Of a DNA stretch of 59,356 bases, positions 6,985 through 59,109 are shown piece after piece. The position numbers and the translations under genes are program-made. Origin of the DNA: Clostridiales bacterium (GTDB taxonomy: Bacteria; Bacillota; Clostridia; Lachnospirales; Lachnospiraceae); the NCBI GenBank assembly GCA_012523775.1, contig JAAYTK010000053.1, forward strand, positions 1-59,356. The letters are read 5' to 3'. How positions within the stretch are numbered: the stretch's first letter is position 1; the number at the start of each line of letters is the position of its first letter. The notes under the pieces are model-generated. The model saw only the letters and a program-made list of their open reading frames with translations. It was not told the origin of the DNA and ran no database searches.

Positions 6985-7007
6985 ATTATAAGCCAAGCAT
7001 GACTATT

Positions 7008-7138
7008 ATTCTTCTCACATCCAGACTTTACTGTCGGTTTTGGAATTTCACCAAATCAATCATAGTGAATATCTATTCTACTCACGATGAGTCGCGGACT
7101 ATACCGCCGGTCGGGAATTTCACCCTGCCCCGAAGATT
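7008..7138 (-). promoter_or_regulatory. FMN riboswitch (RFN element)
   Basis: The minus strand shows hallmark RFN blocks: TTCGGGGCAGGGTGAAATTC near 7118-7137, GACCGGCGGTA, a second GGTGAAATTCC, ACCGACAGTAAAGTC, and the closing GATGTGAGAAGAA. FMN binding is expected to favour the downstream hairpin at 6962-6984 and reduce ribU expression. Confidence 0.95.
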
Positions 7139-7163
7139 TACCTTATATTATTTTTACATTATT

Positions 7164-42212: not shown

Positions 42213-43193
42213 ATGAGAGATATGGCTCAAACCGAAAGACAGATATTTATCTTGCTATTGCTTTCAGAGAATAAAAGGGGTTATACCATAAACGATATTC
42301 ATTCATCCTTGGAAAAATGGGATGTCATCGTGGATAAAAAAACAATAATGCGTGATATTGACAGTCTATCCGGTATATGCTTTATCTCAGAAGAGACAAG
42401 AAACAATAAAACATACTATACCGCCGATAAATTTCGACTAAGTGATATCACCTTTACATCTCCGGAGCTGATTTCCCTTGCATTTATGCTGGAGCTACTT
42501 AAGCCATATCAGTATATGACCATGGGAAGAACCTCAAACGAACTGATACACAAGCTTCTTGATAATACCTCTAATTTAAACAGAGAATTTATAAAGCATT
42601 TTACGGGTCTTGTGTCAATCAATACAAATGACTATATTAGTGATACCTTGAATCCGGAAATAGAGGAAAAGCTCCACGATTCCATGCAGAATAAAAGGAA
42701 GGCCAGAATTATATATCGCAGCTTCGGCAGTGATGAAGATACTATCCGTGTAATTCATCCATATGAGCTTTCCATTAATGACGGCGCTTTATGCGTGGTA
42801 GGATTTTGTGAACTGCGAAATGACATCAGAGATTTTAGGGTATCAAGAATCAGAGCCCTTACTCTACTTGATGATACATTTCAGATTCCCGAAGATTATC
42901 ATACCAACAAGAACAGAAAAAAATTTATACATTTATCGGGAAATGTGGTCGAACAGGTTATTATATTCTTTGATAGTAAAACCGCCAGATATATAATGGA
43001 ATATGAATCAGATCTCGCAGACGAAATCATCCAGACCGAGGATGGAATAAAATTCATAAGAAATACGGCAGTAACAGACGAGCTGATACGATGGATTCTA
43101 CAATATGGCCACGGAGCAAAGGTGTTAAACCCTGCCCACCTAAAGGAAAAAATAAAGAGCGAATTAGAAAAAAGCCTTAATCAATATACATAA
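42213..43193 (+). CDS. WYL-domain transcriptional regulator
   Basis: A 326-residue regulator with an N-terminal winged helix (about 5-65, TERQIFILLLLSENKRGYTINDIHSSL...) and a WYL ligand-binding domain (about 145-225, IIYRSFGSDEDTIRVIHPYELSINDGALCVVGFCELRNDIRDFRVSRI), then a WCX-like C terminus. WYL proteins often sense nucleic acids or small ligands. The ATG at 42213 has AGGAGG seven bases upstream; a longer frame overlapping the MATE gene is rejected. Probably the second gene of a MATE operon. Confidence 0.88.
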   Translation: MRDMAQTERQIFILLLLSENKRGYTINDIHSSLEKWDVIVDKKTIMRDIDSLSGICFISEETRNNKTYYTADKFRLSDITFTSPELISLAFMLELLKPYQYMTMGRTSNELIHKLLDNTSNLNREFIKHFTGLVSINTNDYISDTLNPEIEEKLHDSMQNKRKARIIYRSFGSDEDTIRVIHPYELSINDGALCVVGFCELRNDIRDFRVSRIRALTLLDDTFQIPEDYHTNKNRKKFIHLSGNVVEQVIIFFDSKTARYIMEYESDLADEIIQTEDGIKFIRNTAVTDELIRWILQYGHGAKVLNPAHLKEKIKSELEKSLNQYT

Positions 43194-43206
43194 CCTTTAC
43201 AGACAT

Positions 43207-43236
43207 TTCCCCCATATAAAGCGGGGGATTTTTTTA
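43207..43236 (+). terminator. terminator of the MATE-WYL operon
   Basis: CCCCC pairs with GGGGG around a 9-base loop, then a long T run. Confidence 0.85.
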
Positions 43237-43336
43237 TGATTTTACCAGATCTATTGTCTTTTTTCCATGTAATTAATATATCCTCCATGATACTATTTAT
43301 TGGTAAAGCATTACTGTCATATATAAGGAGGAGAAT

Positions 43337-44242
43337 ATGATAAAATATATTATATGTATTCTAACTATCACTTTGTTATTACTGGGTTGTGCCAAGGATG
43401 ATAATTCTAAAGAATCGGATGCTGATATTACTGAACCGGACACGGTGACGGAACCAACGTCCACACCTACAACTGAACCTACAACTGAACCTACGCCTGA
43501 GCCGACACCCGAAGCCACCCCCACACCTACGCCCAATCCGGATTTGGTTCTGCCACAAGTCATAAATGACAGCGGAAAAGTACGAATCCAAACGGCATCT
43601 ATAAGCACCAGCTATCCGTATAACAGCTATGTTATCTCTTCCGTGAACGGAGAAAATGTAGTGGTAGATCCAACTGCAATGCCACCTAAAAATATCGTAG
43701 ACATCAATCCTGTCGCAATATTAAGCACACATCCACATAAAGACCATGTCGATGATGCCTTTATCGAATCATATGATTGTCATGTTATTCTATATGAAAA
43801 GGCTGAGATTCAAACGAATGACTTTAATATATATACCATTTGGTCCTCACATAATAACGATCTAATTCAGGAATCAAATCAAAATGTGATAATAGTCCTT
43901 GAAGTGGATGGATTAAGAATTGCTCATATGGGCGATATAGGACAAACCGAGCTTACGAAGGAGCAGTTAACCGAGCTGGGTGAAATTGATATTGCTTTTA
44001 TGCAATTTGAAAACGGCTATTCGTCAATGTCTCTAAGGAATGAAAAGGGCTTTAATTTAATTGAACAGTTAAATCCTACCATAGTTATACCAACCCATTA
44101 CTCTCTGTCTTCGATACCTGTTTTTGAAGAAAGGTATGGATCTATCACAGAGGTTAAGAATATTTTGGAAATAACTAAGGATGAACTTCCTGAGGGTTCT
44201 TTGAATGTTTATCGAATTTTAAATGAGCATAAATACAGATAG
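43337..44242 (+). CDS. secreted metallo-beta-lactamase-fold lipoprotein
   Basis: A 301-residue lipoprotein: signal peptide with lipobox LLGC (Cys18), a Thr/Pro/Glu-repeat linker (about 33-69, TEPT and TPEP units) that holds the enzyme off the membrane, and a metallo-hydrolase domain. The zinc motif HPHKDH (132-137) is followed by HMGDIG and a final IPTHYS. The fold resembles the UlaG/COG2220 group of hydrolases, whose substrates vary; this one is unknown. AAGGAGG lies before the ATG. An AraC gene follows after a hairpin that may terminate this transcript. Confidence 0.85.
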   Translation: MIKYIICILTITLLLLGCAKDDNSKESDADITEPDTVTEPTSTPTTEPTTEPTPEPTPEATPTPTPNPDLVLPQVINDSGKVRIQTASISTSYPYNSYVISSVNGENVVVDPTAMPPKNIVDINPVAILSTHPHKDHVDDAFIESYDCHVILYEKAEIQTNDFNIYTIWSSHNNDLIQESNQNVIIVLEVDGLRIAHMGDIGQTELTKEQLTELGEIDIAFMQFENGYSSMSLRNEKGFNLIEQLNPTIVIPTHYSLSSIPVFEERYGSITEVKNILEITKDELPEGSLNVYRILNEHKYR

Positions 44243-44268
44243 CGGTAAACTCAATATAAAAGCATTTA

Positions 44269-44297
44269 TTTACAATATACCTGCCCCGTAGTATAAT
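44269..44297 (+). promoter_or_regulatory. hairpin-embedded promoter of the AraC gene (copy A)
   Basis: TTTACA (44269-44274), 17 bases, TATAAT (44292-44297). The -10 box sits in the loop of the inverted repeat at 44279-44325. Confidence 0.7.
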
Positions 44298-44325
44298 TAT
44301 GGAAAATAATTACTTGTGGGCAGGT
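44279..44325 (+). repeat. inverted repeat A around a promoter
   Basis: Arms ACCTGCCC (44279-44286) and GGGCAGGT (44318-44325) are perfect complements across a 31-base loop containing TAGTATAATTATGGAAA. The right arm reaches into the annotated GTG start of the AraC gene. The core is repeated in copy B (45289-45340) with different arms. Confidence 0.75.
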
Positions 44326-45250
44326 GTTTGATTTGATTCTTAATACTATAGGCAATAATTATTATAAAAATTATATATTTCCTGTTTTGGTAACTAAGAA
44401 TCCGGAATCATTAATGGTGGATGAAGCTCGGGAATACTATAAAATCCTCCTTATAAAATCAGGAATCTGCCGTTTTAATCTGAATGATAAAGAATATGCC
44501 ATAATCGGTTCTCATATTCTGCATCTTAACGATCAGGACAGAATATGCTTCCATAATGCTGGCGATGCGAATATATGGATCGTCCTATTCAGACCCGAAA
44601 TCGTCAATGCAAGCTTTACCATCAGCGTAATTAATGATCCTAACAACCGACTGACAGGTGTAGACAAACAGGATTTGTTTTATATGGAGCAGTTTAAGCA
44701 CAATACTCCCGAAGGCAAAAAGCTTTATCCTCTGGCGGCAATTGATATAACCATAATAGAGAACAAAATAGAGCATCTTAATTATCTGTTAGAAAAACAG
44801 GATACCTGGTCCTGGCCATGTCTCAGTAGATCCTATCTTTATGAAATTCTGTTTGCATTGGCAAGAAGGGGCGTGTCTGAAAACGGCGACGGGGATTTGG
44901 AGAATTATAGCGGTCACTCTAAGCTTACTATTGACATCATATATTATCTTCAGTCTTGCTATAACGAGAAAATAACGATTGACAGTCTGGCAGAAAAATT
45001 CCACACTAATCGCACCACTTTACATAATGACTTTAAGAAACATACCGGAATGTCTATTAATCAATATTTAGTTCAGCTTCGTATAGGTATGGCTGCAAAG
45101 CTACTTAGGGATACGGGACTCTCAATGTCTGAAATATGTGAACGTATCGGATTTAACGATACTGGCTATTTCAGCAAAATTTTCAAAAAGAAGTTTAATC
45201 AGACTCCGTCTGAATACAGACATATATACAAAAGCAAAGATCTTCTATAA
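44324..45250 (+). CDS. AraC-family transcriptional regulator
   Basis: A 308-residue regulator with an N-terminal cupin-like sensing half (about 1-150, EYYKILLIKSGICRFNLNDKEYAIIGSHILHLN) and a C-terminal double helix-turn-helix (about 205-303; GFNDTGYFSKIFKKKFNQTPSEYR is the AraC signature). AraC proteins of this kind usually switch on nearby sugar-use genes; the large secreted protein downstream is the obvious target. Start is uncertain: GTG at 44324 overlaps the hairpin arm and lacks a good binding site, TTG at 44333 lies eight bases after GGCAGG. Confidence 0.87.
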   Translation: MFDLILNTIGNNYYKNYIFPVLVTKNPESLMVDEAREYYKILLIKSGICRFNLNDKEYAIIGSHILHLNDQDRICFHNAGDANIWIVLFRPEIVNASFTISVINDPNNRLTGVDKQDLFYMEQFKHNTPEGKKLYPLAAIDITIIENKIEHLNYLLEKQDTWSWPCLSRSYLYEILFALARRGVSENGDGDLENYSGHSKLTIDIIYYLQSCYNEKITIDSLAEKFHTNRTTLHNDFKKHTGMSINQYLVQLRIGMAAKLLRDTGLSMSEICERIGFNDTGYFSKIFKKKFNQTPSEYRHIYKSKDLL

Positions 45251-45280
45251 GATTTAAGTAAAACTAAGCTAAATTACTCA

Positions 45281-45309
45281 TATACAACACACCCACCGGA
45301 TAGTATAAT
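45281..45309 (+). promoter_or_regulatory. hairpin-embedded promoter of the beta-helix gene (copy B)
   Basis: TATACA (45281-45286), 17 bases, TATAAT (45304-45309). The -35 is weak (four of six), so activation by the AraC protein is plausible. Confidence 0.55.
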
Positions 45310-45345
45310 TATGGAAATAAATGTTTATATTAGTGGGTGTTTTTT
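45289..45345 (+). repeat. inverted repeat B around a promoter, with T run
   Basis: Arms ACACCCAC (45289-45296) and GTGGGTGT (45333-45340) are perfect complements with a 36-base loop containing the same TAGTATAATTATGGAAA core as copy A. Six T follow the right arm, so RNA entering from the AraC gene could terminate here. Confidence 0.75.
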
Positions 45346-45387
45346 ATTGAAAAACTTATAGGCGAAAATATAATATAAGGAGGAAAT

Positions 45388-48300
45388 ATGAAGAATTTTA
45401 CTTTGTTTTGTCTATTAATGGTTTTTACACTTATAGGGATTAATTCTATTAATCATAATATACATACAGATGCAGCCGAAACAGACGAAATAATAAATGA
45501 ATACGGAGTCGTCTCAAAAGATGACATATTGTACCAGGATAATTTTGAAGACAAAGATTTATCAACGGCAAATGCCCAAATAAAAAACGAATTGACCTGG
45601 CGTACAAAAGGAGATTTAGGAATATCTGCTGTTAAAAACCCTGAAAGCAATGTGTTAAGGATGAATGCAGGAGCATATGCAATTTCAAATGAGATAATTG
45701 ATGAACCGGAATATACGGTGTGCTTCACAAGCATTAATTGGTATAACACTCCTGCCAGAGTTATGATTGAGTATCAGGACAAAGACAACTACTATTCCTT
45801 CAGTCCAACGACGGGACAGGTTTTCCGTATGATGGATGGTACTGAAGAAGAGTTAAAGGTTGAAAATGTCAGTAGAATTTTAAGCTCTCCAAGACAGAAT
45901 CCGTCAGTAAATTATTTTAAAATATATCTTAAAAATAACGGTAAATCTATAACCATCTCCGTAGACCGTGATGGATATGCTAATAAAAAGGATTATGAAT
46001 ATACATATGTCGACCAAAAGCCCGCAGCCGTTAAACGCTTTAAGGGTGGCTCAATCATGTTGACCAGAGTCGATACGGGAACGAGTCGTTATTGGGTGAA
46101 TTTTGATAATATTCTTGTGACTAAGGGAAAGCTTAAGGCCGCCTTACCAAGGAATCCGGGAAAGCTGTATGTAAGTACTAAAGGCAATGATAATAATGCC
46201 GGTACTAAGTCAAAACCGTTTAAGACTATAAATAAGGCTCTTGAAGCATCATATCCCGGTGATGAAATCATTGTTGAAAACGGGGTATATGATGAGCAAA
46301 TCAAGTTTGCATCTAACCGTATATATGGTGAGAAGGACAGTAAGCTTATTCTTCGAGCCGCGAATAAGCATAAGGCTACTATAGGCTCTGTTAACTTAAA
46401 GTATGGCGATTTTGTTATTATAGACGGTTTTAAGCTGAACGGCGCAGGCATTGATTTGGGAGGAAGCACTGGTGTAGAGGTTATCAATAATAATATTCAA
46501 GATACAGGAATAGGTATTAAAGCTTACGGAAATAACTGCAGAGTCGCAGGAAACTACATATATAAGTGCAGTTTTGGAATTAACGTGTCGGGCTATAACA
46601 TGCTTGTTGAGAATAACGAAATAGAGCGTCTTATATATAGAAGCGGAGACGCTGATTATTTTCGTTTCTTTGGTGAAGGCCATATAATTCGGGGCAATTA
46701 TATGCATGGTACCCGTAGTGATGAAATTGGAAAAGCACATGTAGACGGCTTTCAGACCTTTGATAACAACGGTGAATATGCACGACATATAGTTATCGAA
46801 GGTAATTTCATAGAGGATTTCTATCATCAGGGGTTCATGGGCTCAGGGCGCTATTATTACCACTCCTATGATATAACCTTTAGAAACAATATCTTTAAGG
46901 ATGCTGCTTCATGGGGATTATGTATTTCTACTCTAAAGGATGTAAAGGTCTATAATAACCTTTTTATAAACATGGGAATACATGGCATCGGATACAGAGA
47001 AGCCGAAGGTAAACCGGCTACAGGAGAAGTTAAAAATAATATCTTCTACAATGCAAATAACTGCTACTTTGGAATTGACCATAAATATGTGTCCAACAAT
47101 ATAATATATAGAACAGACCCTTATAAAAAATACAGTCAGGAAAGCTATCCAAATGATATTGTTAATGCGGATCCCTTATTTATGGATGTTGATAATAACG
47201 ATTTTTCACTACATCCGAATAGTCCGGCAATTGATAAGGGAATAAACCTGAATTTCAACCATGATTATTTAGGAAACAAACGTCCATATGGAAGCAAATT
47301 TGATATCGGACCATTCGAGTATCAGGGAGCCACTCATCCGGTAGCAAACATTAAATATGACAATTACGAAAACAGTAATTCAGGATACGAACCGTTTAAG
47401 GTTACTTTTGACGGCTCCAATTCCTATGTCCCGGATGGAAGAACTATTGTTTCATACAAATGGGATTTTGGTGACGGCAGCACAGGAACGGGCAAAACCA
47501 CAAGTCATATATTCTCCTCAGGAAAGTATACTGTCAAGTTAACAGTCACAGACAGTGCAGGTAAAAAACACACTGCCAGTCAAAAATTTGAAGTATTGCC
47601 GGCCAAATATCCTAATCTATATCTGTATCTGCCATTTGATAAGAATTGTCTGGACGTATCCGGAAAAAATATGACAGTGGAAAGCAGTCAGGACATCATT
47701 TTAGAAAAATCAGGTTACGGAAAATCGATTCGCTTTAATAATTCAAAAAGCCGGGGTATTTCGGTAAAGCATGATAATAATCTTGATGGACTGGATGAGA
47801 TAACCATAGCTTTCCTTGCAAAGAAAAATAAAAAAAATACGGCCGCAACGGTTATTCATAAACACACGGTATATGCCGTTCAGATATCAGCAACCGGTTT
47901 CTCAGGCTCCATAAGCACTGACAAAGAATCTAAGAAATTTTCAGTAACGAATAAAGTTAATGATACCGATTGGCACCATTATGCCATAACTTATGATGGT
48001 TCAAAAATAATTACATATATAGACGGAAAAGAGTGCTCACGAACCGTATTGACAGGCAGGATAAGGCGGGATTCCAGTCGCGAAATTGTAATCGGTAGAA
48101 ATCCCTGGGGAGACAGCTTTGAAGGGTTGATGGATGAAATCAGAATTTACAACAGGGCATTGTCAAATAAGGAAATAAAACAGATCATTAAGGGCGAGAC
48201 AATACCAAAACCAACACCGAAGCCGACTCCGAAACCCACTCCGAAGCCGACCCAGAAGCCGACCCAGAAGCCAACTCCAAAGCCGACTCCAAAACCTACT

Positions 48301-49443
48301 CCTACTCCGACACCCACTCCTAAACCAAAATCTACCGTTGCTAATGAAAAAATATATATGAGCTCAAATATCGGTACACTTGACTTATCCATATATAAAA
48401 ATAACGACGGCGATATAATAATGACTGCAGAGTTACCGGTTGAGAGGATCGTAAAATATGCGGATACTAAAAAACCTACAAATCCGGTAAAGCTTAATAT
48501 TCCTCTTAAGTCCAAGCAACTTGTTAAATATTTGGAAAATTCTTATAAGATCAATAAAAATGATGACGGTAAGCTTCTAATTTCAATGACCATACCTAAC
48601 AGCATACTAAATCATAAGAATATAGAATTATCGGGAATTAACCTTTCATCCGGTATCCTGAAAACCTTAAAGGATATCGGAAAGGACGCAGAAATTATTA
48701 TATATGATGAGGAGGGCGATATTCTAATCAGCTGGTTGTTTACCTCGAAAGCCCTTAAATCATCCGGCAGTAATATTACGGATGTTAACCTGCTCTATAC
48801 ATCAGATGATATAGCTCCAGAAACCGGTATTTATAATTTGGTGGGAGGAAAATCCAAGAAGGGACTTACGCTAAAACTTAGTCATACGGGGCCGTTTCCT
48901 GCACAGGCAAGTATAAAGCTGTATGTGGGAGACCGAGTTGAATTTAAGAGCGGCAGCAAGATATACCTATATCATTATAATAAGACCACTAATAAGCTCG
49001 AAACACTTCCCTACAGCTCAAAATATAAGGTTGATAAGGAAGGATATGTGACAATAAATCTCCTTCATGGCGGAGAATTTGTTGTTCTTTCCAAAGCGGC
49101 TGACAATAAGACTATCACTTCACTCGTTAAGCAGCTTAAATTATCACCAAACAAGACTACCCTATATGTCAAAGATACTAAAGGAAATAAGGCCAAGACC
49201 AAGCAGCTTAAAATTACGCTTCCCTTAAGCCTTGAGATAGTAGAAAATATCAAGGCTAAAACCTCTCAGGATGCTATCGGAGGAGTATCTGTTACCTACA
49301 GATCCGGTAATTCGAAGATAGCTAAGGTGAGTAAGTCAGGAAAGATTACGGCTGTAAAAAAGGGAACTACCTATATATACACGAAGTTAACCCTATACAG
49401 TGGTAAGAGTATAACTCTTAAGACCAAGGTAACAGTAAAATAA
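45388..49443 (+). CDS. secreted modular beta-helix protein, probably polysaccharide-active
   Basis: A 1351-residue exported protein. In order: signal peptide (about 1-30); a jelly-roll-like region (about 45-250); a right-handed parallel beta-helix opened by the DUF1565-type motif [19 protein letters not shown] at about 260 and running to about 650; a PKD domain (about 665-737, [13 protein letters not shown]); a LamG/concanavalin-like domain (about 744-934, [19 protein letters not shown]); a Pro-Thr-Lys linker (about 939-981); an unknown beta-rich domain (about 985-1235); and a Big_2-like Ig domain (about 1262-1351). Beta-helix plus carbohydrate-binding modules suggests a pectate-lyase-like or other glycan enzyme, but I cannot assign a catalytic family. 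No sortase or S-layer motif was seen. AAGGAGG precedes the ATG. Confidence 0.85.
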
Positions 49444-49494: not shown

Positions 49495-49800
49495 CAATAT
49501 ACGAATTTTATATAGAAACCATAAACCTATGAGTAAGAATAGTAGATATTATTATTTATTTACAGAGAGCTGCATACGGTGAAATTGCAGTAATAAATGT
49601 AGTATCGAATGGGCTTACGAGGGTGGGAAGAAAATCATATCCGTATGATGAGTAATGCCTAACGGAATCTCCATCCGTTATCAAGGGAGCATGTATGTCA
49701 GTACATGGAGCAAGTGGGTGCATATGCACCAAACCGGGTGGTACCGCAGAAGCAATCAAGCTTTTGTCCCAGTAAATTACTGAGACAAAAGCTTTTATTT
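49495..49800 (+). promoter_or_regulatory. T-box riboswitch, tryptophan-specific
   Basis: Stem I begins ACAGAGAGCTGC and includes GGTGAAATTGCAG. The specifier loop reads GAATGGGCT, giving codon TGG (49610-49612) for tRNA-Trp. The T-box GGGTGGTACCGCA is at 49736-49748. The terminator stem AGCTTTTGTC/GACAAAAGCT (49759-49793) ends in TTTTATTT. Uncharged tRNA-Trp should allow trpB2 transcription. Confidence 0.93.
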
Positions 49801-58818: not shown

Positions 58819-59109
58819 AAAAAAGTCCCAAGCCAAACGCTTGAGACGAATTAAATCCGCGGTACCACTCAACTTGACAATTGAATATATTATTCAGATG
58901 AATATATTCATTGTCCTCCTCTATCATATACAATATTATATATGCCATCCATATAACGGTAATGGTGTCCGTCAACGCCTACTGTTAGTTCGGGTTGCCC
59001 TCAAAAGCCCATTCAGCTAAAGACTCGATATCGCATTCTCACCACCGGCGACTCTCTGAAATGTCGTACTAAAGCCTACTCCTCTTTCTCAACGGTTTCA
59101 CATATTATT
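58819..59109 (-). promoter_or_regulatory. T-box riboswitch, tryptophan-specific, upstream of trpX
   Basis: Minus strand: stem I CAGAGAGTCGCC with GGTGGTGAGAATGCGA, specifier loop GAATGGGCTTTTGAGG giving TGG (59009-59011), T-box GAGTGGTACCGCGG (58857-58870), and terminator GTCTCAAGC/GCTTGGGAC followed by six T (58819-58847). The specifier region is almost identical to that of the trpB2 leader. Confidence 0.94.

Follow-up and report, generated by a model that had tools for sequence, protein, structure and literature searches.

What purpose is served by a promoter that lies inside a hairpin, and why is such an arrangement found on both sides of a gene for an AraC-family regulator? The question is raised by contig JAAYTK010000053.1 of a Clostridiales bacterium (family Lachnospiraceae; assembly GCA_012523775.1), of which all 59,356 nucleotides were analysed and are referred to as the window. 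A preliminary description had reported two intergenic inverted repeats, one before the AraC gene (copy A) and one behind it (copy B), with a common core and with arms that differ but remain complementary, and had suggested that each could be a terminator for the preceding gene and a promoter for the following one. The features of the locus are as follows.

43337..44242, + strand: lipoprotein gene with a metallo-beta-lactamase-fold domain (ORF; Pfam PF13483, E 8.5e-22)
44269..44274, + strand: -35 box of copy A, TTTACA (promoter scan)
44277..44327, + strand: hairpin of copy A (fold z -4.20; covariation), with its basal left strand in the promoter spacer and GGTG in its right strand
44292..44297, + strand: -10 box of copy A, TATAAT, within the hairpin's left strand (TATAAT in 15/15 aligned copies)
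44322..44326, + strand: AGGTG in the right strand of hairpin A, taken as the araC Shine-Dalgarno site, 6 nt 5' of an in-frame TTG
44333..45250, + strand: AraC-family regulator gene (Pfam PF12833, E 6.6e-24), TTG start according to relatives (GTG 44324 in the mechanical ORF list)
45281..45286, + strand: -35 box of copy B, TATACA (promoter scan)
45289..45340, + strand: hairpin of copy B, followed by a T run (fold z -3.00; terminator score 7.8)
45304..45309, + strand: -10 box of copy B, TATAAT (promoter scan)
45388..49443, + strand: gene for a large protein with DUF1565, PKD and LamG domains, with its own Shine-Dalgarno sequence AAGGAGG (ORF; Pfam)

The lipoprotein gene ends 27 nt 5' of the copy A -35 box, runs in the same direction as araC, and is the presumed source of read-through RNA into araC. 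The product of the large gene (1351 aa) contains TP-rich linkers besides its DUF1565, PKD and LamG domains, and a T-box leader lies directly 3' of this gene (49520-49774, + strand). A second T-box leader (58839-59101, - strand) and an FMN riboswitch (7005-7141, - strand, 116.4 bits) were also present in the window.

Two hairpins overlaid on promoter-like sequences

Both inverted repeats, their arms and the 17-nt core TAGTATAATTATGGAAA, which is exactly common to copies A and B, were located where the preliminary description had put them. It had proposed a search for further copies of the core; in this genome the exact core occurred at just the two known sites, but relatives carry units of the same kind. 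Promoter-like pairs were assigned to copy A (TTTACA-17-TATAAT, 44269-44297, 11/12 matches to the consensus) and copy B (TATACA-17-TATAAT, 45281-45309, 10/12 matches). Such boxes alone prove nothing, because the same scan gave 16 sites in positions 43000-46000 and 14.2 in shuffled sequences. When a TATAAT with a -35 match of at least 4/6 was combined with perfect 8-nt arms, the left one in the spacer and the right one downstream, exactly copies A and B were matched in the window; in 200 dinucleotide shuffles of the window the mean was 0.16, and two sites were reached in 2/200. RNA folding gave z-scores of -4.20 for copy A and -3.00 for copy B, and in 0/200 shuffles was equal stability obtained for either.

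Each copy forms a hairpin of about 50 nt overlaid on the promoter: its basal stem (ACACCTGC-like/GCAGGTGT-like) is topped by an apical stem that holds the -10 box in its left strand. The hairpin is thus real but larger than first described, since it reaches further in and includes the -10 box, of which 4-6 of the 6 bases are paired in every one of 16 copies, namely 12 A, 3 B and the additional unit of genome G028, described below. A promoter-like TATAAT within the hairpin was likewise found in the copies examined. No family at gathering score was returned by an Rfam search of 44269-45345.

Distribution and conservation of the unit

A genus sample of 34 genomes was examined by pattern, protein and covariance-model searches. 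The protein search (E <= 1e-30; in six of the genomes only 68 candidates scored) yielded 20 AraC matches in 14/34 genomes. Twelve are close relatives, each from a different genome (46-100% identity), and the other 8 are distant (28-36%). The unit lies just upstream of the AraC gene in all 12 close relatives, so that the further copies expected in relatives do exist. All 12 have TTTACA (11) or TGTACA (1), a 17-nt spacer, TATAAT and the hairpin, a promoter count that rests partly on the search word, because the word search used to locate the promoter required TATAAT together with any of three -35 variants (12/12 succeeded). Folding z-scores were computed for the 12 A copies and for copy B of G000; seven of these A copies (G003, G004, G005, G025, G030, G031 and G032) had been found by the protein search alone, not by the core or structure searches, and their hairpins (z -5.3 to -11.2) constitute an independent test for that reason.

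The covariance model, applied to the genus with 150 candidates scored per genome, identified 16 places at E <= 1.7e-10: all 12 A copies, and 4 sites of type B that include two near-identical variants in G027. The twin arrangement is present as described, but in only 3/12 genomes. The same model gave 3 weak matches, none of them upstream of the gene, at the 8 distant AraC loci and at two distant loci from named genomes; the latter were the two distant matches of a named-genome scan for AraC relatives and have no unit upstream. AraC relatives found in a plasmid search were all below 60% identity. A run of the model over 329 family genomes (328 genera), with stricter filters and 15 candidates scored per genome, picked up no copies but the window's two at E <= 1e-5. 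This does not prove that the unit is absent elsewhere; within this sampling, it appears restricted to the genus.

The gene order in G027, read over two contigs that each carry a B variant, is MBL-fold gene (Pfam), copy A, AraC gene, copy B and DUF1565-related gene. A PLP-enzyme gene (Pfam PALP; TrpB-like by eye) stands 3' of the last of these. The order in G016 is MBL-like gene (cut by the contig end), copy A, AraC gene, PfkB-type kinase gene and copy B. The bases after copy B in G027, TAATACAATAGGCAATAATTA, match the araC coding start of the window at 20/21 positions; copy B accordingly looks like a duplicate of A together with the first araC codons, that is, a partial duplicate. A further unit of the full build (L074, covariance model E 1.9e-6), with no AraC gene following, was found in G028, flanked by a gene that looks cupin-like by eye and by a serine dehydratase gene (Pfam PF03315). 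Among the 68 of 79 candidates scored in this genome, none was an AraC relative at E <= 1e-30.

Six loci (L074-L079) were inspected as weaker matches of the genus model. Three of them (L075, L077 and L078) resembled plain terminators and L079 resembled nothing; these were rejected. L076 (G023) has a weak -35 box and a stem of 19 bp that encloses TATAAT, with a permease-like gene on one side (Pfam below cut-off) and a gene without a Pfam match on the other; this build may have arisen there independently.

Covariation was measured on an alignment of 15 copies (12 A and 3 B, with one of the G027 B variants used and G028 left out), in which TATAAT and GGTG are invariant (15/15). Standard pairing was found in 85.0% of 240 cells against 71.5% after shuffling, and the covariation score was 0.479 against 0.233; neither value was reached in any of 500 shuffles. 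Changes on both sides occurred in 10/16 pairs (shuffled mean 7.1; reached by 12/500) and in 35 cells (14.5 after shuffling; 0/500). Because related sequences can exceed shuffled ones without any structure, the register slides and the folding z-scores matter too: slides of 1-3 columns left 36.3-51.7% paired. RNAalifold, run on the same alignment, returned 11 basal pairs in the same register. Comparison of A with B within one genome revealed double changes that keep pairing, 3 in G000, 1 in G016 and 3 in G027. In the same three genomes, 3/12 basal pairs differ between A and B and are unpaired in at least one copy, and pair 17-47 is unpaired in 7/15 copies. On the AraC tree, 42 pair changes were counted, comprising 2 double changes in one step, 19 single changes between standard pairs and 21 that involve an unpaired state. 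The ratio of G-U to A-C cells in the 12 basal pairs (21:7) is no proof of action as RNA, because column shuffles give 24.1 to 12.9. The covariation of the arms inferred from two copies is confirmed by these results, and the original observation holds and is stronger than had been stated: the hairpin structure is real and well supported, and its function is what we infer in the following.

The ribosome site in the hairpin and the start of the RNA

GGTG is present in the right strand of every A copy, with an in-frame start codon 5-8 nt further on in 12/12, and the right strand was therefore read as the Shine-Dalgarno site; GGTG belongs to the extended sequence complementary to the 16S rRNA tail. 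The start codon is ATG or TTG in 11 copies and GTG in G025, where an in-frame GTG, 5 nt after GGTG, opens a longer frame with other starts further on; the AraC protein of G025 may thus carry an N-terminal extension. About 100 nt with further palindromes lie between the hairpin and the usual araC start at this locus (L050). In the window, the most likely araC start, as read from the relatives, is TTG 44333 rather than GTG 44324. The right arm of copy A had been described as overlapping the AraC start codon; an overlap does exist, but it is better read as one with the Shine-Dalgarno site (GGTG). Burial of this site in the A copies, a conserved feature with a likely translational effect, was absent from the preliminary description.

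For folding, the RNA start was set by rule at 7 nt after the -10 box. The predicted cost of opening GGTG was 7.2-15.2 kcal/mol in read-through RNA and 0.6-6.2 kcal/mol in RNA with its own start, and it was higher in the read-through RNA in 12/12 A copies. The mean unpaired probability of GGTG in G000 was 0.069 in its own transcript and 0.004 in the read-through RNA; the values for G027 were 0.263 and 0.239, with full opening still cheaper in its own transcript. Even in its own transcript, GGTG is predicted to be far from fully open.

The surroundings of the A copies suggest where read-through RNA would come from. In 11/12, the -35 box is preceded at a distance of 18-156 nt by the end of a co-directional gene, MBL-like in 8 and cupin-like in 3 by sequence likeness (Pfam checks were made for two MBL-like genes and one cupin-like gene); in G005, no co-directional upstream ORF of 80 codons was present in the fetched stretch. 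A simple scan detected no terminator-like site between the upstream gene and the unit in 11/11 gaps, one of which (G003) contains a strong stem lacking a T run. Read-through is to be expected because a co-directional gene is near and the gaps hold no terminator-like site, and the unit would be the sole candidate barrier seen to it.

The reading that we consider reasonably probable is that the hairpin with its built-in promoter serves as an insulator: whether an RNA is translated would depend on its starting point. RNA entering from the co-directional upstream gene would contain both strands and would fold into the hairpin of about 50 nt, hiding the araC Shine-Dalgarno site. RNA from the inner promoter, starting after the -10 box, would not hold the left strand, because this strand lies in the promoter spacer; with a more open ribosome site, this RNA would be translated. 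That only read-through RNA could fold had already been proposed, and the geometry does allow it. Where a good T run follows, as in B of two of the three genomes and in some A copies, the hairpin probably also ends the read-through RNA. The biological reason may be that the regulator is kept free of upstream transcription. Caution is called for, because hairpins over a ribosome site can lack effect: according to PMC2997769, disruption of predicted hairpins over the ribosome site of pvuIIR led to no significant change. Also to be set against this reading are the missing upstream ORF in G005, the limited opening of GGTG in its own transcript, and the unpaired states noted above (3/12 basal pairs between A and B, 21/42 changes on the tree).

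Alternative explanations and known systems

Hiding GGTG cannot be the function of the B copies or of G028, because the structure is kept there although no AraC start codon uses GGTG. The unit might accordingly be a terminator joined to a promoter, in which the T run ends the RNA of the preceding gene, the next gene is started, and burial of the Shine-Dalgarno site is incidental. On a terminator score, 8 of the 16 copies (12 A, 3 B and G028) were positive: 5/12 A, 2/3 B and G028, including G000_B, G027_B and G028, none of which precedes an AraC start codon. The same three have 7 T in the 8 nt after the hairpin, which G016_B does not. This reading is also favoured by the absence of any other terminator-like site in the 11 gaps and by the position of the G028 unit between two genes neither of which encodes an AraC protein. 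However, the other 8 scores were negative, strongly so in G005 (-50.1), G025 (-29.0) and G016_B (-27.8), and copy A of G000 scored -8.9, while four plain terminators scored 10.8 to 34.9 on the same scale. The number of T in the first 8 nt after the hairpin ranges from 2 to 7, and a terminator does not need the invariant GGTG. As a general explanation, termination with promotion is thus unlikely. The terminator role originally suggested for both copies is poorly conserved, though plausible for B and for part of the A copies; units of type B may combine terminator and promoter, copy B of the window is probably the terminator of araC and the promoter unit of the next gene, through which the large DUF1565 protein gene is possibly expressed, and a translational role appears better conserved in the A copies than termination.

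The remaining explanations place the arms in DNA or make the hairpin a sensor. AraC-family proteins often regulate their own gene, and RhaR, a member of the family, binds inverted half-sites; together with the presence of the unit at this AraC gene in 12/12, this would fit arms that are half-sites of an operator, on both sides of the -10 box, for AraC or another regulator. A protein would favour the same half-site in A and B, which disfavours the operator: in three genomes the arms of A are not those of B, some of the differences being joint, and in G027, with one AraC protein of the type, they change together (CCTGC/GCAGG and CCTTA/TAAGG). In addition, the 19 single steps between standard pairs among the 42 changes on the tree always involve G-U and break the symmetry of the DNA, and we regard an operator as improbable. 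Slightly less probable still is a sensor of upstream transcription, in which a ligand, protein or small RNA would open the read-through hairpin and make araC conditional on the upstream operon. The hairpin is long and conserved, and TAGTATAATTATGGAAA is kept in its loop and apical strand among close relatives, but not in more distant ones, and no Rfam family matched at gathering score. An invertible promoter or a DNA cruciform switch is hardly credible: inverted repeats do flank the promoter, and several units are near-palindromic and match the model on the other strand too, with fewer bits, but all 16 copies (12 A, 3 B and G028) have one orientation, toward the following gene, G-U pairs are of no help to a cruciform, and the arms lie very close together for site-specific inversion.

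The preferred reading, translation that depends on the start of the RNA, resembles the lysozyme gene e of phage T4. According to PMC3014915, the long transcripts of this gene fold and hide the ribosome site, late promoters lie where the 5' strand is encoded, and transcripts without that strand are translated; soc, 49 and I-TevI are named there as further cases of inhibitory structures. The unit would work like the gene e leader, a likeness of logic that need not imply relatedness: the long RNA would fold over the ribosome site and the inner-promoter RNA would leave it free. Pairing of the ribosome site in the long RNA is predicted here in 12/12 A copies (7.2-15.2 kcal/mol), and an RNA without the 5' strand is implied by the sequence, the -10 box lying in the hairpin in 12/12 A copies. 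In contrast to gene e, the promoter-like boxes here are of the housekeeping type, the gene is a chromosomal regulator gene, the left strand lies in the -35/-10 spacer with the -10 box inside the stem, and the unit covaries across 12 genomes and has a duplicate before another gene. An arrangement known from phage thus appears to be conserved here on a bacterial chromosome.

Transposase genes of IS10 and IS50 are protected from read-through by an inverted sequence that folds only in RNA from outside. The restriction of folding to RNA entering from outside is the same, whereas the gene here encodes a regulator, and no transposase gene was noticed beside the unit among the listed ORFs. Intrinsic terminators that overlap promoters are also known, and they share with the unit a stable stem, joined in several of its copies by a T run; the unit differs in that its T run is not conserved, its promoter occupies the left strand and the loop, and its Shine-Dalgarno site lies in the right strand. 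By title or start of abstract, no paper describing this unit was found in a literature search whose coverage mostly excludes subscription journals.

A wider reading can be offered only tentatively: the unit could be a portable cassette of about 60 bp in which a promoter, the terminator of the preceding gene and a translation switch occupy the same bases, and which spread by copying within the genus, from araC to further genes (copy B of three genomes, and G028 before the serine dehydratase gene), each gene becoming independent of its neighbour's RNA, with the RNA start and not a ligand setting translation. If start-dependent translation is true, the trick of a phage lysis gene would also shield a regulator gene on a bacterial chromosome from the transcription of its neighbour, and selection would be strong enough for the hairpin to stay paired while its sequence changes. 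The layout of a left strand in the -35/-10 spacer, a -10 box in the stem and a Shine-Dalgarno site in the right strand is a searchable signature, which would flag genes whose translation depends on the RNA start site, and it suggests a compact insulated promoter.
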